From Longimicrobium sp. (GTDB lineage: Bacteria > Gemmatimonadota > Gemmatimonadetes > Longimicrobiales > Longimicrobiaceae), in assembly GCF_035474595.1 (NCBI RefSeq), contig NZ_DATIND010000063.1, forward strand, positions 1 through 39,195: 39,195 nt of DNA, read 5' to 3'. The notes beneath the pieces are model-generated. The model did not search any database, had not been told where the DNA came from, and worked only from the letters and a program-made list of their open reading frames with translations. Positions 51-15,017 of this stretch are shown one piece after another (the stretch's first letter is position 1; each line of letters begins with the position of its first letter). A program made the translations under genes and the position numbers.

Positions 51-158
51 GCTGATGCCACAGAATGAGCGGATCAGCCTCGCGCAGTTTGCGAGGCTTC
101 CCGTAGTTGTTGCTGCGACTTCAGTCGCCGGTGGGGGGCCAAGCCGCGAACTTTCTAT
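51..158 (+). repeat. Dispersed repeat B, uninterrupted copy
   Basis: This stretch holds the block with 'agcctcgcgcagtttgcgag', then 'cgtagttgttgctgcgac' and 'ttcagtcgccggtgg'. The left half recurs at about 12622-12668 and the right half at 13548-13625. It contains a small hairpin, gcgac-ttca-gtcgc. This is the only copy in the window where both halves are joined, so it serves as the empty-site reference for the interrupted copy near 13 kb. Function unknown. Confidence 0.75.
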
Positions 159-6037: not shown

Positions 6038-6691
6038 TCATCCGCCCGGCGCCGCGACGGCTTCGGCGAGCCAGGCGCGGGCGTCCCGCGCCTCGTCGGG
6101 GGAGATGCCGTGGCCGATGCGGTAGTCGCGCTCCGTCAGGTCGGCGCCCGCGCCGCGGAGAAGCGCGCGCCCTTCGATCGCCAGGTCGAAGGGGATCTGC
6201 GGGTCCATCGTCCCGTGCCCCCAGAAGAACCGCGTCCCGGCCACCGCCTCCGGCGTGACGCGGACGGACGGGTGCTGCGCGAGGAAACCGCTGAAGTTCA
6301 TCACCAGCGGCACCGCGCCGGGGTTGCGGAGCGCGTACGCCATCGACATCACCCCGCCCTGGCTGAACCCGCCCAGCACCAGCGGCCCGGTGCGCACCGG
6401 CAGCGCGGCGGGGATCTCCGCGAGGAATTCGGCGAGCTGCGCCTGCGAGCCGTCGAAGCTCTCCGGGTCGGGGACGTTGCGGCCCAGGAAGCGGTACCAC
6501 GCCCAGCCGGGCCCGTACCCCCACGGCATCCCCGGCCACGGCGCCTCGGGGCACACCACCACCGCGTCCGGCGCCAGCGCCGGCGCGAGCCCCATCAGGT
6601 CGAAGCGGTCCGCCCCGCGCCCATGCATCAGCACCACGAGCGGCGCGCCGTCGGTCACGTGCGGGGGGATGACGGTTTCGTATTTCAGCAT
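6038..6691 (-). CDS. Phospholipase/carboxylesterase-type alpha/beta hydrolase
   Basis: A 217-aa cytosolic serine hydrolase of the YpfH / carboxylesterase (PF02230-like) family. The oxyanion-loop motif LMHGRGAD is at 21-28, the nucleophile Ser110 in GGFSQGG, the acid is probably Asp163 in HGTMDPQIP, and the base His194 in RIGHGIS. The complete triad implies an active esterase or lysophospholipase. The ATG at 6691 gives the usual family N-terminus. No clear Shine-Dalgarno is visible: the region directly upstream (6701-6727) is an array of 8-bp GTGCGARA repeats. The flavin reductase follows after 13 bp, so the two form an operon. Substrate unknown. Confidence 0.9.
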   Translation of the reverse strand: MLKYETVIPPHVTDGAPLVVLMHGRGADRFDLMGLAPALAPDAVVVCPEAPWPGMPWGYGPGWAWYRFLGRNVPDPESFDGSQAQLAEFLAEIPAALPVRTGPLVLGGFSQGGVMSMAYALRNPGAVPLVMNFSGFLAQHPSVRVTPEAVAGTRFFWGHGTMDPQIPFDLAIEGRALLRGAGADLTERDYRIGHGISPDEARDARAWLAEAVAAPGG

Positions 6692-6700
6692 CGAACCAGG

Positions 6701-6727
6701 GTGCGAAAGTGCGAAGGTGCGAAAGTG
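6701..6727. repeat. Tandem 8-bp array (GTGCGARA) upstream of esterase
   Basis: About three and a half octamers (gtgcgaaa, gtgcgaag, gtgcgaaa, gtg) lie 10 bp upstream of the esterase start codon. This places them where the ribosome binding site would be. The same octamer family recurs at 7828-7862, 9040-9085 and 15026-15060. Confidence 0.8.
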
Positions 6728-6757
6728 TGTTCGAAGCGCCGAAATCCGTCACCCGGG

Positions 6758-6805
6758 AAGTCCGCGAAGGCGGACTGCGTGCCGTTGTAGCCGCGAGTTC
6801 ACTCG
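6758..6805. repeat. Dispersed repeat C, half copy
   Basis: It shares gtccgcgaaggcggac and the following 'gccgcgagttcactcgc' with the right arm of the palindromic element at 4379-4569. The other arm is missing. It lies between the esterase start and the cupin stop and is non-coding. Confidence 0.55.
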
Positions 6806-6839
6806 CATTTTTCGCACGATTGTCGTCTACCGACCACAG

Positions 6840-7334
6840 TCACTGACCGGAGTCAGTCTTCGATTCCGCCGATCCGGTAGCCCGCCCCGTCGCCCGGTCG
6901 TACGGCACGATGTGCTCCCACTCGCTCGCGTCGGAGCGGGCGACGACGGCCACGACCGGCTCCGTCTCGCTCGCGTTGAACACCTCGTGCGGCACGCCGG
7001 GGGCGATGAAGATGAAGTCGCCCGCCTCGTTCTCCACCACCTGCCGCAGCCCGTCGCCGTACTCGTGGCGCACGCGGCCCTCCAGGATGAAGAGCATCAC
7101 CTCGAAGTCCACGTGGATGTGCGCGTAGGCCACGCCGCCGGGCGGGATGGTGGCCACGTTCATCGACAATTGCTTCGAGCCGACGTTCTTGGCGCTCATC
7201 CCCGTGCGGTAGCGGATGCCGTTCCACCCGCGCACGTTGCCGCCGCCGCGGATCACGAAGATGCCGTCGTGCCCCTCCACCGGCGCGCGCAGGTCGGCGC
7301 CGTCGTCGCGGGGCAGGGTCGCTGGATCGCTCAT
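6840..7334 (-). CDS. Single-domain cupin protein
   Basis: A 164-aa protein with one clear cupin barrel. Motif 1 is GGVAYAHIHVDFEVMLFILEG (about 66-86), giving His72, His74, Glu78 and a Gly. Motif 2 is GDFIFIAPGVPHEVFN, giving the second-sphere Pro-Gly and a third metal-binding His. The four metal ligands appear intact, so it should bind Fe, Mn or similar. Single-domain cupins of this kind are dioxygenases, isomerases or sugar-binding regulators, and nothing here decides among these. The gene begins 21 bp after the stop of the upstream membrane-protein gene on the same strand, so co-transcription is likely. Confidence 0.87.
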   Translation of the reverse strand: MSDPATLPRDDGADLRAPVEGHDGIFVIRGGGNVRGWNGIRYRTGMSAKNVGSKQLSMNVATIPPGGVAYAHIHVDFEVMLFILEGRVRHEYGDGLRQVVENEAGDFIFIAPGVPHEVFNASETEPVVAVVARSDASEWEHIVPYDRATGRATGSAESKTDSGQ

Positions 7335-7355
7335 GATGGGTTCGATGCGCTGGGG

Positions 7356-7784
7356 TTACCGCGACGCCGCGGTGCAGGTGGCGGTGCCGCTGCTGCCCAC
7401 CGGCGAGCGGCCGATGGCGCTGATCCCGCCCACGATCAGCAGGAGCGCGAGCACCACGCCGACCAGCGCGACCGTGTGCGCACGGCGCCCGTCCGTCTGC
7501 TTGCGCGCGTAGACGCTGCATCCGTGCGCCGCGACGGCCGCCAGGATCATCATCGCCAGGTGCCCCATCAGCGCGGGGTAGAAGCAGCCGAGGACCACCA
7601 TCACGATCCCCAGCAGCACCTGCAGGTCCATCACCCCGGTGAACACCGCCATGGAGATGCGCGACGGCCGCTCGTACGGCCTGCGCCCGAACACCCCCAG
7701 CGCCAGCACGATCAGGGCGACGACGCCCGCCAGCAGCACCAGGAAGCGCAGCCCCGAATGCGCGTGGAAGATATGGTTGATCAT
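7356..7784 (-). CDS. Four-helix integral membrane protein
   Basis: A 142-aa protein with four hydrophobic helices (about residues 12-32, 45-68, 73-90 and 102-122). Several His residues lie at helix ends (MINHIFHAHSGLRF, GHLAMMILAAVAAHG), a pattern seen in small haem-b or cytochrome b561-like proteins. The His placement only suggests haem binding; I do not recognise the family with certainty. It lies just upstream of the cupin gene. An 8-bp repeat array sits 44 bp upstream of its start. Confidence 0.75.
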   Translation of the reverse strand: MINHIFHAHSGLRFLVLLAGVVALIVLALGVFGRRPYERPSRISMAVFTGVMDLQVLLGIVMVVLGCFYPALMGHLAMMILAAVAAHGCSVYARKQTDGRRAHTVALVGVVLALLLIVGGISAIGRSPVGSSGTATCTAASR

Positions 7785-7827
7785 CGGTCCTCGTGGGTTG
7801 GGTGGAGGGCGACAATGTAGCGGGATG

Positions 7828-7862
7828 GTGCGAAAGTGCGAGAGTGCGAAAGTGCGAGAGTG
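7828..7862. repeat. Tandem 8-bp array (GTGCGARA)
   Basis: Four alternating octamers (gtgcgaaa, gtgcgaga, gtgcgaaa, gtgcgaga) and a partial unit lie 44 bp upstream of the four-helix membrane protein start codon, in its 5' untranslated region. Confidence 0.85.
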
Positions 7863-7960
7863 ATTCGGCGCGCGTGGCGATCTTCCGCCGCGCGCGCCGA
7901 TGGTCTTCCTGAACCTCTCTCGTAGACCAAGCGTCGCCCCGCTATGGTCCCCACGCCGAA

Positions 7961-8222
7961 GACGTCATCCTGAGGCCGGCCACACCGCAACCCGTATCCG
8001 CACAATCCTTTGCAGGCCGAAGGATCTATAGCCCGTCAAGCACGTGAATCGAGGATTCACGGGGATGGGTCCTGCTGACGTTCGATCGCATCGCGGATAC
8101 CGAACCGGAGGCACACTTCCAAGCCGAATGCCGGCTGACGTGCTGGACCGGCTATAGATCCTTCGGCCTGCAAGTGCTTGTGAATGCTTCGATTATCGCG
8201 TGGCCGGCCTCAGGATGACGTC
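7961..8222. repeat. Palindromic dispersed repeat A, full copy 2
   Basis: The outer arms are 'gacgtcatcctgaggccggc' (7961-7980) and its reverse complement at about 8202-8222. The inner arms are tttgcaggccgaaggatc (from 8009) and gatccttcggcctgcaa (ending 8172). It has the same architecture as the element at 160-361 but a longer, unrelated centre. This arm conservation with a variable centre fits a hairpin-forming or MITE-like element. Confidence 0.8.
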
Positions 8223-8263
8223 CCTTGGGGACATGTGACAACTGCTCCTGCACCGGTCCCGCA

Positions 8264-8881
8264 TCACTCCTCCGCGCCGCTCCGTGCCGCGGTGAACGGC
8301 GGCAGCTGCTCGCCGAAGTCGTCGGTCTTCAGCGTGCGCGGGCAGGGGCGGTCGCAGCGCTGGCCGCCCTCGCCGGCGACGCAGAGGAGCGCGTATTCCT
8401 GCCCCGTCCACCGCCAAACGCCGTGGCAGAACCCCGGCCCGCCCGCCAGCACGTCGGTGAACCCCTGCGAGTGCGAGGGAAGGGGATACAGCCCGCCGTT
8501 GAAGTTCAGGTTCATCCGCCACGCCCCGGCCGCGCTCCGGATGAACACCCAGTTGAACCCGCCCGCCATCCCGCCCACGCACGTCCCCTGCGCCTCCACG
8601 TGCACCTCGGGCACGGCATCGCCGTTCAGGTCCACCAGCCGCGCGGACATCTCCGTGTCCTCGCATCCCATCACCGTGTACGTCGCGGCGCGGCCGTTCC
8701 AGCTCAGGCCGTCGCCGCCGAGCGTGCGCACCATCTCCGCCTGCAGCGCCTGCTTCATCGGCGCGGCGAGCGGGAGCGGGGCGACGAGATGCGCCACCGC
8801 GGCGGCGGCGCCCTGCGCGCGGGCGTGGAGCGGGAGGAACGCGATCGAGGCGACGGCGAGGACGAAGACACGCAGCTTCAT
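8264..8881 (-). CDS. Secreted protein of unknown function
   Basis: A 205-aa protein with a classic signal peptide ending ARAQ (about 1-23), so it is exported. The mature part has a segment LVDLNGDAVPEVHVEA (about 81-98), the pattern of FG-GAP or EF-hand-like loops found in extracellular proteins. Several Cys residues (MGCEDTE, GTCVGG, FCHGV, LLCV, RCDRPC) may form disulfides after export. A Trp/Gly-rich central part (GGFNWVFIRSAAGAWRMNLNF) looks beta-structured. I do not recognise a named family. It stands alone, with the App1-type gene ending about 220 bp upstream on the same strand. Confidence 0.8.
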   Translation of the reverse strand: MKLRVFVLAVASIAFLPLHARAQGAAAAVAHLVAPLPLAAPMKQALQAEMVRTLGGDGLSWNGRAATYTVMGCEDTEMSARLVDLNGDAVPEVHVEAQGTCVGGMAGGFNWVFIRSAAGAWRMNLNFNGGLYPLPSHSQGFTDVLAGGPGFCHGVWRWTGQEYALLCVAGEGGQRCDRPCPRTLKTDDFGEQLPPFTAARSGAEE

Positions 8882-9039
8882 GGCAGCCGATCCGGAGAAG
8901 GGAGAGGATGAACCGCGGAGGTGGCGACCCGCATTGCGAAATTATTCCCGCGAACGCGTCATCTCCAGCATTTCCTCTCATGGAGAGCTCGGATAGCACC
9001 GAGCAAGCGCCGGGTGACGAATTTCGGTGCGCTTCGAAC

Positions 9040-9085
9040 GCACTCTCGCACTCTCGCACTCTCGCACTCTCGCACTTCGCACTCT
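9040..9085. repeat. Tandem 8-bp array (CACTCTCG)
   Basis: About five and a half octamers, the reverse complement of the GTGCGAGA unit, lie between the App1-type phosphatase stop (9099) and the secreted-protein start (8881). On the minus strand they begin 13 bp beyond the App1-type stop codon. Confidence 0.88.
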
Positions 9086-9098
9086 CCCGGAGCCGCGA

Positions 9099-10274
9099 TC
9101 AGACGTCGCCGGCACTCAGCTCCTCGTTCGCGTCCTGCACCGCGTCGATCGTGGGCTGCTGCTCGGCGTCGGCCACCTCGCCGATCTCCGCCAGGCACGC
9201 GGGGTCGATCCACCCGTTCCCGGCGGCGTGGCGGGCGGCGGTCACGGTGTCGTCGGCCAGGATCAGCGAGCTCCCCGCCTTCTCCACCTCGCCCGCCAGC
9301 GCGCGGATGGCCTCCACCCGCTCCGGCGCGCGGCTGACGTTGCGGATGTACACGGCCAGGATGCGCTCCGGATGGTCGTGCACCGCGCGGTGGTAGATCT
9401 CCGGGTCCTCCTGCCCGCTGTCGCCCACCAGGATGAAGGGGAGGGCGGGGAAGGTGTCCAGGATGTTGCCGATGTGCCGCAGCTTGTGCCCCGAATGCCC
9501 GCCCGGCCCGGGATCCACCGGCGAGATCCCCCAGTCGCGCAGCAGCAGCGGACCCAGCGGGATGCGGCGCAGCTCCAGGAACTCGGCCAGTGCGTCGTAC
9601 AGGTTCCAGGGGCTGCTGCTGACGTAGAACACCGGGTTGTGCGCCGCGCCGTCCCCCCCACGCTCCAGCGCGCGGTAGAACGGGGCCACGCCGGGAAACG
9701 GCATCCGCGTGTGCGCGTTCCCCAGCAGGACGTTGCGCGCCATCCGCAGCCGCGAGGCCACGTCGGTGCGCACCACGGTGTCGTCGATGTCGCTGATCAC
9801 CCCGAAGCGCGCGGCGGGCGAGGGAACGCGCACCGGCGCCGTGGTGCGGAACGGCTCGCCGCCGTCCACCGGCTCCAGCAGCTCCATCTCCACCTCCACC
9901 CACCCGGTCGGGGAAGCGAGCGGGGGATGGGGATCGGTCCAGCACTCCACGTACCCCTCGCGGTCGGCCCGCAGCTCCTGCTCGCCGCCGGGGTAGCGGA
10001 CCCGCACGCGCGCGCCGGGGATCTCGTCGCTCTCGAAGCGCTGCAGCGTGGCGGCCAGGTTCAGCCACACGCTGTCGCGCTCGCGGGCGCGGGGCGCGGG
10101 GGCGCCGCGCAGCACGCGCGCCTTCACCCACGCGCGGTCCGGGCGCCCGAAGCCGCGGTACGGCTCGATGCGCGGGCGCCGGTCGCCCGTCATCCCCAGC
10201 CGCTCGCGCTGCTCCGCCAGCTTGTCTTCCACCCGGTCGGCGAACTTCGCCAGGTGCCGCCGCCACTCCGCCAC
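9099..10274 (-). CDS. App1-type (DUF2183) phosphatase domain protein
   Basis: A 391-aa protein whose C-terminal half is an App1 catalytic domain, a HAD-fold family that includes the yeast actin-patch phosphatidate phosphatase App1. The nucleophile motif is SDIDDTVV, with Asp162 and Asp164 of DxDxT. Conserved segments follow: PVFYVSSSPWNLYDAL (about 214-229), GHKLRHI and the metal-binding loop ILVGDSGQEDPEIY (281-294). The N-terminal 150 residues are beta-rich and usual for the family. It may act on phosphatidic acid or another phosphorylated lipid; substrate is inferred from the family only. The gene is monocistronic: a strong terminator at 10345-10379 separates it from the upstream lipoprotein gene. 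Confidence 0.9.
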   Translation of the reverse strand: MAEWRRHLAKFADRVEDKLAEQRERLGMTGDRRPRIEPYRGFGRPDRAWVKARVLRGAPAPRARERDSVWLNLAATLQRFESDEIPGARVRVRYPGGEQELRADREGYVECWTDPHPPLASPTGWVEVEMELLEPVDGGEPFRTTAPVRVPSPAARFGVISDIDDTVVRTDVASRLRMARNVLLGNAHTRMPFPGVAPFYRALERGGDGAAHNPVFYVSSSPWNLYDALAEFLELRRIPLGPLLLRDWGISPVDPGPGGHSGHKLRHIGNILDTFPALPFILVGDSGQEDPEIYHRAVHDHPERILAVYIRNVSRAPERVEAIRALAGEVEKAGSSLILADDTVTAARHAAGNGWIDPACLAEIGEVADAEQQPTIDAVQDANEELSAGDV

Positions 10275-10344
10275 GCGCCCGATCCTTTCCCCCGTGAGTT
10301 TGATGATTCCGCTCTGGTGAAACGTTCGTGCCGCGTCCCCGCAT

Positions 10345-10379
10345 GCGAAAGGCCGCGGCTCGTCGCCGCGGCCTTTCGC
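10345..10379. terminator. Strong intrinsic terminator
   Basis: A perfect 14-bp stem (gcgaaaggccgcgg / ccgcggcctttcgc) with a 7-nt loop lies 43 bp beyond the stop codon of the minus-strand Ig-like lipoprotein gene and before the App1-type gene. Confidence 0.85.
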
Positions 10380-10421
10380 TCGCCGTCACCGCTCGCCCCG
10401 GAGAGGCCGGGACGCCCGCGG

Positions 10422-12359
10422 CTAGGGCGTGACGGAGATGGTGGTGGGATACCCCGCCGCCGCCAGCTGCTGCGTGTTCAGGGTCGTTCCGTTCCCCGCC
10501 CGGTCCTGGACGCTGGCGAGCGCCACCGTCCAGGCGCCGGTCTCGGCGGCGTTGAAGCGGAAGGCGCACGCTCCGGTGGCGCTGGGGGCGTTCAGCGGCA
10601 CTCCCATCGTGCACTGCCGCGTCTGCGTGCCGCCGTCGCGCCGCAGCGTCGCGGTCATGAAGAAGAGCCCGCTCCCCGCGTCGGTGGCGGAGAGCGACAG
10701 CCGCACCGAGTCGGCGGTGTTCGCCGCCACGGTGGGCGAGGAGAGGGAGAAGCCGGTGACGGCGGGAGGCGCCGTGTCTTCCTGCGGCGAGACGACCTCG
10801 ATGGCCGTGGGGTACCCGGCCGCCTGCAGGGCGGCGGTGGAGAAGGTGCGTCGGTTCCCGCGCACGTCCTCGAGCAGCACCTGTTCCACCACCCACGCCC
10901 CCGCCGGCGCGAAGGCCGGGAAGTTCAGGTAGCAGCCGTACACGTTGCTGAAGCCGCTGATGCTCGGCAGCCCCGACTCGCACCCCAGGGCGTTCCCGGT
11001 GCGCGTGCTGCGCGCGACCACGCGGACGCGCGCGATCCCCGAGCCGGTGTCCGTCACCGCCACGTTGACCACCGCCGCGGTCGAGCCGGCGGTGGCCGTG
11101 GGCTGCGGGATGGACAGGCTGTCGAGAACGGGCCCCGTCTCGTCGCCGGGGTTCTTCACCTCGATGCGCCACGGGGCGCCCGCCGCCCGCAGCGCGGCCG
11201 TGCTCACGGTGCGGTCGCGCCGGTAGTTGTGCAGGTTCACGCCCTGCACCACCCAGGCACCCCGGATCATCCATCCCGGCATCACCATCCTGCACTCGTA
11301 CACGCCGTCGTCCGCGGTCCCCGACACCAGCGTCACGTCGGCGCAGAACCAGCCGTCGCTGGTGCGCAGCGGGCTCTGCACGTCGAGGGTCAGGAAGTAG
11401 AAGGACGCGTGCGCGTTCTTCACCCCGATGCGGAAGACCAGGGAATCCACCTCGGCCAGCACCGTGCCGGGAAGGACCTCGAAGCTCACCAGCGTGGGCC
11501 AGGTGACGGCGGGATCCGCCGTCACCAGCAGCTCCGCGCGCCCCGCGCGGTCGCCACTGGTGGCGGTGATGGTGGCCGCTCCCTCGGCCAGCGCGGTCAC
11601 CAGCCCGGCGCTGTCCACCGTGGCCACCGCGGGGTTCGAGCTCCACCACCGCACCGGCGGCCCCGCCGCGGCGCGCCCGGTGACGCCGCGGAGCACGCCC
11701 TCCATCCGCTGCGTCTCGCCCACCGCCAGCGACGGGGCGATGGGCGTCACGCTCACCCACCCGGCCTCCGCGAACACCGGCGCGGCCACGTACACCGTGA
11801 AGGCGAACGACACCACCGTGGCCGGCACGTGGAAGCGCCACTCGCGGGGCGCGGTGGTGTCGCCGGGAACCAGCGGGCCGGCGTAGCGGAAGTACGGCTG
11901 CACCCCGGCGGTGAACGCCCCCTCGCCGTCGGCGTTGTCCACGGTGACCACGCCGGAGCCGTCGGTGGTGGTCGGCCCGGCGTGGAAGAACACGCGCACC
12001 CCTTCCGCCGCCGCGTTCACGCCGTCGCGGGTGCCCAGCGCCTGGCCGGTGAGGTTCTCCACCGTCACGTTCGAGCTGAGCGTGCCGCTGGCCTCGTCGT
12101 ACTTCGTGCCGCTGGACGCCAGCCGCACGTTCACCCCCTGTCCCCCGAAGATGGCGGCCCGCGCGCCGGCCGCGCCCGGCGCGCCCGCGCAGGTGAGCGT
12201 GCCCTCGCGCACCCGCACGGTGCACTGCAGCGCCGCGACGGCCGCGGGCGGCTCCGCGGCGGCGGGCGGCGCCAGGGGGCTGCGGTCCGTGCAGGCGACG
12301 GCGGCAGCGAGCACGCCGCCGAGCGCGCAGGCGGCGAGGAACGATGTGGAACGGGTCAT
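10422..12359 (-). CDS. Large lipoprotein with Big_2 and three Ig-like repeats
   Basis: A 645-aa cell-surface protein. A lipoprotein signal ends in AVAC at Cys23. Residues about 200-282 form a Big_2 (bacterial Ig-like) domain, with the usual RWWSSNPAVATVDSAGLVTAL and GAATITATSG. Three tandem repeats of about 110-120 residues follow (about 285-403, 404-525, 526-645). Each contains a TDxGSG-type segment or equivalent, a pair of Cys, GAWxVxxVxLxDxxGN and an ending like AAGYPTxIxV. They look like Ig/fibronectin-like modules built for binding or stalk formation. Start: ATG with AAGGAG about 9 nt upstream. A strong terminator follows the stop. No catalytic domain is visible, so adhesion or surface architecture is most likely. 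Confidence 0.85.
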   Translation of the reverse strand: MTRSTSFLAACALGGVLAAAVACTDRSPLAPPAAAEPPAAVAALQCTVRVREGTLTCAGAPGAAGARAAIFGGQGVNVRLASSGTKYDEASGTLSSNVTVENLTGQALGTRDGVNAAAEGVRVFFHAGPTTTDGSGVVTVDNADGEGAFTAGVQPYFRYAGPLVPGDTTAPREWRFHVPATVVSFAFTVYVAAPVFAEAGWVSVTPIAPSLAVGETQRMEGVLRGVTGRAAAGPPVRWWSSNPAVATVDSAGLVTALAEGAATITATSGDRAGRAELLVTADPAVTWPTLVSFEVLPGTVLAEVDSLVFRIGVKNAHASFYFLTLDVQSPLRTSDGWFCADVTLVSGTADDGVYECRMVMPGWMIRGAWVVQGVNLHNYRRDRTVSTAALRAAGAPWRIEVKNPGDETGPVLDSLSIPQPTATAGSTAAVVNVAVTDTGSGIARVRVVARSTRTGNALGCESGLPSISGFSNVYGCYLNFPAFAPAGAWVVEQVLLEDVRGNRRTFSTAALQAAGYPTAIEVVSPQEDTAPPAVTGFSLSSPTVAANTADSVRLSLSATDAGSGLFFMTATLRRDGGTQTRQCTMGVPLNAPSATGACAFRFNAAETGAWTVALASVQDRAGNGTTLNTQQLAAAGYPTTISVTP

Positions 12360-12503
12360 CGAGGGAAGCTCCTTGGCGGTGGGGCCGAGGGAGTAGGACC
12401 GGGGAAGGGGAGCATTCGCGGGAACAGCAGTTCCGCGCCGAATGATAGCGCCCCGGTCCGCCCGCGGAAAGAATTTCCATCCGGGAGCGGTGCCGGACGC
12501 GAG

Positions 12504-12532
12504 CGGGGCCGCGGATTGCTTCCGCGGCCCCG
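12504..12532. terminator. Perfect 12-bp hairpin, possible terminator
   Basis: The stem is cggggccgcgga / tccgcggccccg with a 5-nt loop. It could terminate minus-strand transcripts coming from the Cys-rich peptide gene about 360 bp upstream, or protect the promoter of the lipoprotein gene. No U-tract is visible, so the role is uncertain. Confidence 0.5.
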
Positions 12533-12621
12533 GTATCGTCCATCGCCGATTGATCCCAGATCCGGGAGATCAGCTTCTGCATCCGCACTGCACCTCACCC
12601 GACATCATCCTGAGTGTTGAG

Positions 12622-12668
12622 CGCTAATGCTGGGCACCGAGCGGACCAGCCTCGCGCAGTTTGCGAGG
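12622..12668 (+). repeat. Dispersed repeat B, left half
   Basis: It matches the left half of the intact copy at 51-158, including 'cagcctcgcgcagtttgcga', and stops abruptly after tgcgagg at 12668. The missing right half is found at 13548-13625. Confidence 0.75.
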
Positions 12669-13554
12669 GATTCCGCCATATCAGCGTAAGCGGTTGCTTT
12701 GCAAGGCGCTTAGCTTTCCGCTCGGTGCCTGCTGTCGGTTCTGGCTGTCGGTTGGCTTAGGCCGCCCTTTTCACGCTGTTGCGGCGTGGACTGGTCGGGC
12801 CTTGGCGCCTCGGCGATCCCACGCAAGCGCAAGGAGCAGCCTTCGGACTGCCCCTGCGCTGTTGCCTAAAGATCGGGCCTGCCTGTCAGCCATCAGCAGT
12901 ATGAGGGACCCGTCCAGACCGTGCAGGAATCCCCGTAGCACGTGCCTTGACCGCACGTGCCCTCGCACGAGTAGTCGCAGGTGCCATAGCACGAGTACTC
13001 GCACGTGAAGCACGTCGCGCCGAAAGTTGGATCGTTCGGGGGGAGCTTCCAGCAGTTGACATTCTGGGAATCGTTAACGACCGCATGGGCGTGGACGGTC
13101 CCGCCTTCCCGTCGCTGGACGGGTGAAGGCTCAAACGACTCGACGCGCAGCGTGTCCAAATCCAGAGTCAGCTTCTTCATGTAATCGTTCTCCTTGATGA
13201 GGGATGAAGCGGCCGTGCCCTTGCCGCCAAAGGTGAGGGTAAATTCTATGTCGGGAAAGTATCTTGCACAAGGCGACAATTATAACTCAGTCGGTGACCG
13301 CGATCGAGCCGTGGCGGCGGCGCTCTGCTGGTTCCACCCGCCAAGGCCTTTCAGCGACGATGGGACAAGACGGGAGAAAGCGGCCCGCCGGGTGATTTTC
13401 TCGCGGGCTCTGCTGTCGGTTCTTCTGTCGATTGTTGCGGCAAGATGCTGGATTCAGTTCGGGATCGTGTACGGGTTGCGCGCGCACACCAAAGGAATTA
13501 CGCCGTTTCCGAGCATCTTGCTGCGTTCAGCTGGTATTCACGTAATCTGCGAGG
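12662..13554. mobile_element. Candidate insertion element carrying a Cys-rich peptide gene
   Basis: A repeat-B copy is split here. Its left half ends in tgcgagg (12662-12668) and its right half begins with the same tgcgagg (13548-13554), as expected for a 7-bp target-site duplication. The 879-bp interval between them begins GATTCCG..ATATCAGC and its reverse-complemented right end begins GATTACG..AATACCAGC. These are imperfect terminal inverted repeats with about 15 matches over 22 positions. No transposase is encoded; the only supported gene is the Cys-rich peptide at 12893-13180. A further direct similarity (tgctgtcggttct...ctgtcg) occurs at 12730-12755 and 13411-13434. The interpretation as a non-autonomous element is inference. 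Confidence 0.5.
12893..13180 (-). CDS. Cys-rich precursor-like peptide 1
   Basis: A 95-aa peptide with a conserved leader and a Cys-rich core. The leader (MKKLTLDLDTLRVESF, then GGTVHAH) is shared with the peptides at 26030-26332 and 34079-34315. The C-terminal core contains ten Cys. Most directly follow Ser or Thr and are spaced every four residues (about 60-86, with CFTCEYSC, YGTC, DYSC, EGTC), so the core is a short internal repeat. The ATG at 13180 has AAGGAGA 8 nt upstream. The leader pattern LxVESFxT recalls leaders of Bacteroidota pinensin-type lanthipeptides, and the paired Ser/Thr and Cys would suit thioether rings or disulfides. No modification enzyme is encoded nearby, so processing is inference. 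It sits inside the apparent insertion element. Confidence 0.82.
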   Translation of the reverse strand: MKKLTLDLDTLRVESFEPSPVQRREGGTVHAHAVVNDSQNVNCWKLPPNDPTFGATCFTCEYSCYGTCDYSCEGTCGQGTCYGDSCTVWTGPSYC

Positions 13555-13670
13555 CTTTCCGTAGTTGTTGCTGCGACTTCAGTCGCCGGTGGAGGGAGCC
13601 AGGCCGCGAGCTTTCCATTCTTCTCTCGGAGGCCGGATGATCGATCCACCGAGGCGCTCCGTCCCGCCGC
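13181..13670. other. Intergenic region; right part of insertion and repeat B
   Basis: No supported gene. The base composition is visibly less GC-rich than the flanking genes. It holds the 5' region of the Cys-rich peptide gene (its ribosome binding site at about 13189-13195), the right end of the candidate insertion (to 13547) and the right half of repeat B (13548-13625). One long plus-strand open frame crosses all of these and is considered spurious. Confidence 0.6.
13548..13625 (+). repeat. Dispersed repeat B, right half
   Basis: It contains 'tgcgaggctttccgtagttg' and then 'ttcagtcgccggtgg', matching the right half of the intact copy at 51-158 almost base for base. The left half lies 879 bp upstream, at 12622-12668. 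Confidence 0.78.
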
Positions 13671-15017
13671 TCACCCATGCAGGTCGGCGCCTTTCCACTC
13701 GCGCGGGGCGTCGGAGATGGGCTGGAGGATGAGGTAGCTGGCCACGATCATCCCCATCAGCACGATCACGCTGAGCCCCTGGCCCACGCGCGGCGCCATG
13801 TGCAGCAGCTGGATGGTGACGTAGGTGGACGCGGCCCACAGCACCGGGCCGGTGATGGCGCTGAAGCGGCCCACCATTCCGTACAGCCCGTAGAACTCGC
13901 CCACGCGCGAGGGCGGCGTCAGGCGCAGCATGTACGGACGGTCGCTCGCCCACACGCCGCCCAGCGAGAACCCGGCCGAGGCGGCCACGAGGAACAGGCA
14001 CCAGAGCGGGAGGCCCAGGATCCCCACCGCGCCGGCCAGCGCGAACACCCCCATCCAGGCGCGCAGCACGTAGTTCAGCGTGCGCCTGGGCCCCAGCCTG
14101 TCCGTCAGCCATCCCCAGAAGAACCCGCCCGCCACCGCGAAGGTGATGGCGAAGAGCATGATGAACTGGCTGGTCTTCTGCCCCTGCGCCTCGTTCATCC
14201 CCGTGCTGACCGCCACGTTCACCGTGTACAGCGCCATGATGGAGATGACGGTGTTGATCGAGTCCGTGTAGAACACGCGGCCCACCAGGAAGCGCACCAG
14301 CCCGGGATACTGCGCCCCCGACTTCAGCGTCCGCACCGTCTGCGAGGTCGAGTCCCTCACCATGGCCCAGCCGATCGGCCGCGGCCGCGGGTTTCCGCGC
14401 TCGCGCACGAACAGGAAGCAGGGGATGGAGAAGAGCAGGAAGGCAATGGCGATGGCCAGGAAGAGCCGCGGCTTGTCGGCCGTCCCCAGCTTCAGCCCCA
14501 GCGCCACCGCCAGGTACGAGCCCAGGTAGCCGATCCCCACGCCGATCCCCCCGACCTTGCCGCGGTTGTCCTCGGTGCTGACCTCGGGGAGCATGGCGTC
14601 GTAGAACTGCGTTCCCGCCTGGTACGCCACGTTGGCCACCACGAAGCACGCCGCGGTCGCCCAGTACCCCGCCCGCGCCAGCAGCGCGGTGAAGACGATG
14701 CAGACGAGGGTGCTGGCGACCAGGAACGGCATCCGCCGCGGCGCCCGGTCCGTCATCGCGCCCAGCAGCGGGGAGACGAGGAAGATGATTCCCATCGAGA
14801 AGGCGGTGATCAGCCCGTAGGTGCTGTCGGCCCGCTGCGCCCCCACCTGGTCGCGCACCCAGAGCGAGAAGTACAGCGACACCACGCCCATGGAGAAGAT
14901 GGTGTTCGCCAGGTCGTACAGCACCCACCCGGCCACCGCCCGCTTCGTGATCAGGTGCGGCACCCGGTGCGGCGGGTACACCGGCGTGGGCTCGGATACG
15001 ATTTCGGCTTCGAGCAT
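13671..15017 (-). CDS. MFS transporter, UMF1/Atg22-like family
   Basis: A 448-aa integral membrane protein with about 12 hydrophobic helices. The family signature GWVLYDLANTIFSMGVVSLYF (30-50) at helix 1 is typical of the UMF1 / Atg22-like branch of the major facilitator superfamily, and SPLLGAMTDRAPRRMPF is the usual loop 2-3 motif. GWLTDRLGPRRTLNY repeats that motif in the second half. These proteins export small molecules such as amino acids, but the substrate here is unknown. The ATG at 15017 fits the family N-terminus. Its 5' region is occupied by an 8-bp repeat array (15026-15060) ending 8 bp before the start codon, and no Shine-Dalgarno is visible. It stands alone on its strand. Confidence 0.9.
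   Translation of the reverse strand: MLEAEIVSEPTPVYPPHRVPHLITKRAVAGWVLYDLANTIFSMGVVSLYFSLWVRDQVGAQRADSTYGLITAFSMGIIFLVSPLLGAMTDRAPRRMPFLVASTLVCIVFTALLARAGYWATAACFVVANVAYQAGTQFYDAMLPEVSTEDNRGKVGGIGVGIGYLGSYLAVALGLKLGTADKPRLFLAIAIAFLLFSIPCFLFVRERGNPRPRPIGWAMVRDSTSQTVRTLKSGAQYPGLVRFLVGRVFYTDSINTVISIMALYTVNVAVSTGMNEAQGQKTSQFIMLFAITFAVAGGFFWGWLTDRLGPRRTLNYVLRAWMGVFALAGAVGILGLPLWCLFLVAASAGFSLGGVWASDRPYMLRLTPPSRVGEFYGLYGMVGRFSAITGPVLWAASTYVTIQLLHMAPRVGQGLSVIVLMGMIVASYLILQPISDAPREWKGADLHG

Follow-up and report, generated by a model that had tools for sequence, protein, structure and literature searches.

An 879-bp unit in a multicopy repeat of Longimicrobium looks like a miniature site-specific integrase element, not a MITE, with a Cys-rich peptide as cargo

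Results

Insertion site and the split repeat

The window analyzed here is the whole 39,195-nucleotide stretch of contig NZ_DATIND010000063.1 from Longimicrobium sp. (genome G000). It carries an 879-bp insert (12669-13547) that splits one copy of a dispersed repeat, repeat B, at 12668/12669 and 13547/13548 (Table 1). The left junction reads ...cctcgcgcagttTGCGAGG (12662-12668) followed by the insert start GATTCCGCCATATCAGC, and the right junction reads GCTGGTATTCACGTAATC, the insert end, followed by TGCGAGGctttccgtag (13548-13554). Read more widely, the junctions are ...cagcctcgcgcagttTGCGAGG + GATTCCGCCATATCAGC...GCTGGTATTCACGTAATC + TGCGAGGctttccgtagttgttgctgcgacttcagtcgcc. The first-pass annotation of this DNA had described a repeat B split by an 879-bp insert with TGCGAGG at both junctions, and this description is exact to the base. 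It had doubted whether the two half repeats came from one copy. Once the insert and one TGCGAGG are taken out, what is left aligns across the junction, at 87-88% over 117 bp, with intact copies of repeat B in the same genome; 35 junction-spanning matches were recorded among 30 loci. Since the joined halves align through the junction to intact repeats, the doubt is settled and both halves derive from a single copy. Repeat B is abundant, with at least 40 matches in its own genome (40 being the number of candidates scored).

No orthologous empty site, meaning an intact unoccupied repeat, was found for the unit in sister genomes. In two of these, G003 and G006, a whole 3.4-kb stretch is absent and the flanking genes adjoin. 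This variable locus (window 10274-13684) contains, besides repeat B and the unit, an ORF for a lipoprotein-like product of 645 aa. An orthologous empty site was not found either for the C105 element described below, the locus of which is rearranged; contig C83 of G000 is without the 14-kb element and also without the neighboring SDR gene. Because both loci are rearranged in sister genomes, only paralogous empty sites, namely intact repeats, are usable as controls. Immediately to the right of the intact repeat-B copy in the window lies a long near-perfect inverted repeat (195-311), gcaggccgaaggatctatcgc ... gcgatagatccttcggcctgc, with inner arms gcacgtgaatcg / cgattcacgtgc.

Table 1. Features of the unit, its target repeat and related elements. 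Positions refer to the window unless a genome and contig are named.
Feature	Position	Strand	Remarks
Intact repeat B copy, unoccupied target site	51..158	+	
Repeat B left half, including hairpin cctcgc-gcagttt-gcgagg	12620..12668	+	Alignment of joined halves with intact copies
7-bp core TGCGAGG, left junction (attL core; the "target-site duplication" of the first-pass annotation)	12662..12668	+	Same core at C46, C105 and C241
Left core-type integrase site GATTCCGCCATATCAGCG (left terminal inverted repeat of the first-pass annotation)	12669..12686	+	Putative
Left tandem arm-type sites CTGTCGGTT-N4-CTGTCGGTT	12732..12753	+	Pattern match; putative
Tyrosine integrase gene 3'-end remnant, ~60 bp	12756..12815	-	77% to G008 C105 integrase gene, E 1.7e-6
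95-aa leader-bearing Cys-rich peptide gene, MKKLTLDLDTLRVESFEPS...GTVHAH, SCxGTC repeats	12893..13180	-	
Right tandem arm-type sites CTGTCGGTT-N3-CTGTCGATT	13413..13433	+	Pattern match; putative
Right-end block GCAAGATGCT ... GGTTGCGCGCGCACA ... CGCCGTTTCCGAGCATCTTGC	13438..13528	+	Common to mini-elements and full elements
Right core-type integrase site GATTACGTGAATACCAGC, read inward (right terminal inverted repeat of the first-pass annotation)	13530..13547	-	Putative
7-bp core TGCGAGG, right junction (attR core)	13548..13554	+	
Repeat B right half	13548..13634	+	Holds TGCTGCG, the class-II element position, 21 bp from the class-I core
Mini-element, window unit, 0.9 kb			95-aa Cys-rich peptide
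Mini-element, 2.9 kb	G000 C46 (L018 2056-4974)		619-aa glycine-rich repeat ORF
Mini-element, ~1.6 kb	G008 C103		Lipoprotein-like ORF
Mini-element, ~1.5 kb	G001 C259		109-aa Cys-rich protein
Leader-bearing Cys-rich protein of the C259 unit	L211 4058-4387	-	From another species
Mini-element, ~1.5 kb	G001 C93		Right core lost to contig end
C122 element	G008 C122:31600-74750 (L191, L209, L210)		Apparent 43-kb integrative conjugative element

Anatomy of the unit

The peptide ORF is the sole credible gene within the unit, as the first-pass annotation had held. It is preceded by a ribosome-binding site, AAGGAG (13190-13195), 9 nt upstream of the ATG. That annotation had overlooked the integrase-gene remnant next to the left arm-type sites. 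The integrase gene itself is absent, and what is kept comprises 60 bp of its 3' end, two putative arm-site pairs and the right-end block. Within the window the tandem arm-site pattern occurs only at 12732 and 13413, at the two unit ends. The imperfect terminal inverted repeats that had been annotated, GATTCCG...ATATCAGC and GATTACG...ATACCAGC, are present; they are best read as core-type sites of an integrase, and TGCGAGG as its 7-bp recombination core.

The right-end block is strongly conserved, with GCAAGATGCT/AGCATCTTGC arms, and may be an attP arm or an oriT-like candidate. It contains CATCTTGC, which resembles the MOBP nic consensus. The frequency of this nic-like motif in the elements is about equal to chance, so an oriT role for the block stays speculative. 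No RNA families were found in the unit, and neither the block nor the right ends showed a conserved fold supported by covariation.

Common ends and two core classes

The ends share one order from the outside inward: the 7-bp core, the inverted core-type sites and the tandem pair CTGTCNGTT. Members of the pair are separated by 4 bases at left ends and by 3 at right ends, the left pair of C46 having one base more. Across ten genomes the tandem arm-site pattern gave 10 matches, all at element ends, versus 1 for the reversed control. The right-end block pattern GGTTGCGCGCGCACA...CGCCGTTT...GCATCTTGC gave 8 matches in 154 genomes of the order, again all at element ends; the genomes concerned belong to three species of a single genus. 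A single match to this pattern in GTDB, from Sphingomonas, was judged to be due to chance.

Two classes of core are found. The class-I core TGCGAGG is that of the window unit, C46, C105 and a right end on C241 of genome G001; the class-II core, TGCCGCG or close variants, is that of C104, C122, C103 and C259. In 33 of 34 intact repeat copies these positions are separated by 21 bp, which indicates that both integrase classes target the same repeat family at two fixed points.

Full-length relatives and their integrase

In a congener, G008, both ends of the unit recur on contig C105 (left end 83%, right end 86%), 14 kb apart, and the insertion point in repeat B is identical. Immediately within its left end the element encodes a tyrosine integrase of 448 aa (PF00589, E 9e-11); a MOBP-type MobA/VirD2 relaxase with a TraI middle domain lies deeper in the element. 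Two other elements were found in the same genome: a 13-kb element on C104 has an integrase and a relaxase, and a 43-kb element on C122 has an integrase, a relaxase, a T4CP, VirB4/6/9/11-like genes, ArdC and ParB. Their integrases are related (66-68% identity), and their end architecture is that of C105. As integrase, relaxase, coupling protein and VirB-like genes are all present, C122 is an apparent integrative conjugative element (ICE).

The C105 and C104 elements look like IMEs. Each has its own integrase and relaxase (PF00589; PF03432/PF22863), and no T4SS families were found among their ORFs scanned. Like IMEs that pair a tyrosine integrase with a MobA/VirD2-type relaxase, they have the integrase at one end, a relaxase and short direct repeats in attL and attR; their target, a multicopy repeat, is different. 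The IME targets listed in a review (PMC5704250) are mostly tRNA and housekeeping genes, the nearest parallel there being Tn4555 near a 207-bp repeat.

An alignment of five integrase homologues shows R276, K303, H375 and Y410 to be invariant; the Arg, Lys and Tyr nucleophile residues are thus present. The parent integrase, aligned to the XerC-like 4a8e, has atypical boxes, with HGEKR for HxxR (HxLR) in box II and AGTTW in box III, in which GT stands for GH. Its AlphaFold model (pLDDT 65, a coarse guide) has XerA, Tn1549 Int and lambda Int as best PDB matches. In this low-confidence model a β-sheet and a helix lie ahead of the core domain, as in lambda-type systems. Integrases of the lambda type use tandem arm-type sites and a 7-bp overlap. 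The elements resemble such heterobivalent systems (lambda Int, Tn1549/Tn916 Int) in their 7-bp core, inverted core-type sites and putative tandem direct arm-type sites at both ends, whereas the parent integrase differs from them in its sequence (identity ~15%) and in its atypical box II/III residues.

Only remnants, and no intact cognate integrase, were found in G000, a draft assembly (96.9% complete, 163 contigs) in which absence is not proven. The unit may thus be immobile in its own genome now. No integrase relatives were found among plasmids or phages, or in GTDB contigs by a scan that picks up close relatives only. PADLOC detected no defence genes among the cargo ORFs of C105 and C46 scanned.

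Mini-elements

Five mini-elements of 0.9-2.9 kb, defined by an absent integrase and retained ends, were found in three genomes (Table 1). In its own genome the window unit has a parallel on C46: sequences matching its left 104 bp (78%, E 2e-14) and its right 145 bp (84%, E 2e-36) lie 2.9 kb apart in the same orientation on this single contig. This element interrupts a different copy of repeat B at the identical position and is likewise bordered by TGCGAGG left and right. In four of the five mini-elements, 60-136 bp from the 3' end of the integrase gene survive, and each remnant is nearest to an integrase of its own core class: that of the window to the class-I C105 integrase, those of C259, C103 and C93 to the class-II C104 integrase. 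As the remnant lengths vary, the deletions were probably independent. Leader-bearing Cys-rich peptides are the cargo of two of the five (window and C259).

Elsewhere in G000, a decayed class-I left end lies in repeat B with the core tgcgcgg (L197 1672-1950; C44:23671). An integrase C-terminal remnant is present there, and no right end was found. The segment L122 3101-3244 is part of another dispersed repeat, of ~145 bp, which is abundant in G001 and in several other genomes of the genus.

The Cys-rich peptide and its family

The leader of the window peptide, MKKLxLDLDxLxVESF, resembles the NCBIfam model leader_pinensin (NF038180) of pinensin-family lanthipeptide precursors. The peptide differs from curated members in scoring 13.1 bits, below the cut-off of 24, and in having no modification enzyme within the unit; other members of its family in the genus reach 15.6 bits against the same cut-off. 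Maturation enzymes for this peptide, if any, would need to be encoded elsewhere.

The peptide family is widespread in the genus, with 66 matches in ten genomes. One of these, that of the window, lies between recognized element ends; the C259 cargo peptide is below the detection limit of the family search, and very diverged ends would escape the patterns. The first-pass annotation had proposed that precursor-peptide genes spread as cargo of mobile units, which would explain their scatter. The cargo part holds for two units in two species, since the C259 unit also carries a leader-bearing Cys-rich protein, and is not a general rule. The explanation of the scatter fails, as only the window peptide match lies between recognized ends. 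At least four ORFs for leader-bearing Cys-rich peptides (L211 ~6280-9100) form an array that starts ~1.3 kb downstream of the right end of the C259 mini-element, which places a peptide-bearing unit beside a resident array.

Discussion

A miniature integrative element in repeat B

The anatomy looks like that of a real mobile unit: a site-specific integrase element, not a MITE, with a multicopy target and, in two cases, a peptide as cargo. At the level of sequence, the ends and the insertion point are shared, a piece of the integrase gene remains, and the full-length relatives carry integrase and relaxase genes and, in one case, those of a T4SS. The earlier suggestion of a non-autonomous mobile unit in repeat B is thereby upheld, as the anatomy fits and the same ends recur at C46 and C105. 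We propose that the unit is a miniature integrative element, a CIME-like deletion derivative of an integrative mobilizable/conjugative family that targets repeat B, and we place the probability of this reading at roughly 0.87. Points against it are the missing intact cognate integrase in G000, the lack of an orthologous empty site among the sister genomes, the atypical catalytic boxes and the low confidence of the integrase model.

As part of this proposal, the parent tyrosine integrase would recombine the 7-bp core TGCGAGG at a fixed position in repeat B. The integrase would come in trans from a full element that shares the cell, and would bind both the core-type arms (GATTCCG.../GATTACG...) and the tandem arm sites CTGTCNGTT. 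The unit would then be excised as a circle with the attP ...CACGTAATC-TGCGAGG-GATTCCG..., and this circle would insert into another repeat B by strand exchange within the 7-bp core.

CIMEs are defined as att-flanked elements (attL + attR) that have lost integration and transfer genes (PMC5704250). The unit is likewise flanked by att sites, with a common core in attL and attR and core-type sites at both junctions, and has neither integrase nor transfer genes. Its evident origin as an ICE/IME deletion derivative is marked by the 60-bp integrase remnant and by relatives with integrase, relaxase and T4SS genes. It differs in its very small size (0.9 kb), its single-gene cargo and its putative movement, and it stands alone in a dispersed repeat, with no ICE as neighbor and no tRNA or housekeeping gene as target. 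A precedent for integration in dispersed repeats is the Neisseria filamentous prophage Nf1/MDA, which integrates in dRS3 repeats (PMC3898611). Its target is also an abundant dispersed short repeat of inverted-repeat character, although Nf1/MDA is a phage and has no ICE/IME/mini series. No description of such a series in hairpin repeats of this group was found in the literature, the partial coverage of which makes this weak evidence for its absence.

Alternative readings

In a relic version of the same explanation, a full element inserted and decayed by internal deletion, and the small form never moved and is now immobile. This version is possible, if on balance unlikely. It would account for the lack of an intact cognate integrase found in G000 and for decayed ends such as that at C44, and the integrase remnant shows that deletion in place is possible. 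Against it, in most mini-elements the two ends are complete, arm sites and cores included (the right core of C93 being cut off by the contig end), most hold one compact gene, and they outnumber full elements in the three genomes. That the recombination sites alone were kept points to selection or to recent mobility, short of proof.

The first-pass annotation had instead read the unit as MITE-like, with TGCGAGG as a 7-bp target-site duplication; the duplication would then be the work of a DDE transposase with a preference for repeat B. The unit does resemble a MITE: it is small and non-autonomous, its terminal inverted repeats are imperfect and a 7-bp direct repeat flanks it. Some transposases favor hairpin repeats. 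A transposase is nevertheless very improbable here: all class-I copies (C46, C105, the window unit and the C241 right end) have the same TGCGAGG at one and the same repeat base, the unit still contains the 3' end of the integrase gene, and the full-length relatives have a tyrosine integrase at their left end, with no transposase detected in the ORFs scanned. Given the fixed core position and the integrase-bearing parent, we reject this reading.

Still less credible is an integron-type gene cassette captured at a secondary site. The single gene and the ends of tyrosine-recombinase type would suit it, and the parent integrase weakly matches the XerA/integron integrase model, but at 24.8 bits versus a cut-off of 220. 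Moreover, long arm regions and integrase remnants are kept at both ends, the insertions are single and target a dispersed repeat, and the right ends lack a detectable covarying fold. Finally, chance juxtaposition of two independent repeat-B fragments, conceivable for a repeat that is abundant and often fragmentary, is refuted to near certainty by halves that join at the 7-bp overlap into a 117-bp match and by the recurrence of the same architecture and junctions at C46 and C105.

Meaning of the element family

With the unit read as a miniature integrative element, three size classes (a 43-kb ICE, 13-14-kb IMEs and 0.9-2.9-kb mini-elements) are joined by one end type and one integrase family. 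Their target, a multicopy repeat that two integrase classes use at cores 21 bp apart, differs from that of most integrases, which is a single-copy tRNA or housekeeping gene. We raise, as a rather doubtful extension, that the mini-elements form a working cassette system, in which the repeat-targeting ICE/IME integrase family would mobilize end-only single-gene units (peptide precursors, lipoproteins and others) in trans, the repeats would serve as interchangeable docking sites, and the right-end block may act as oriT for conjugative transfer. For precursor-peptide genes, elements of this family provide a concrete means by which they could travel between bacteria without their enzymes.
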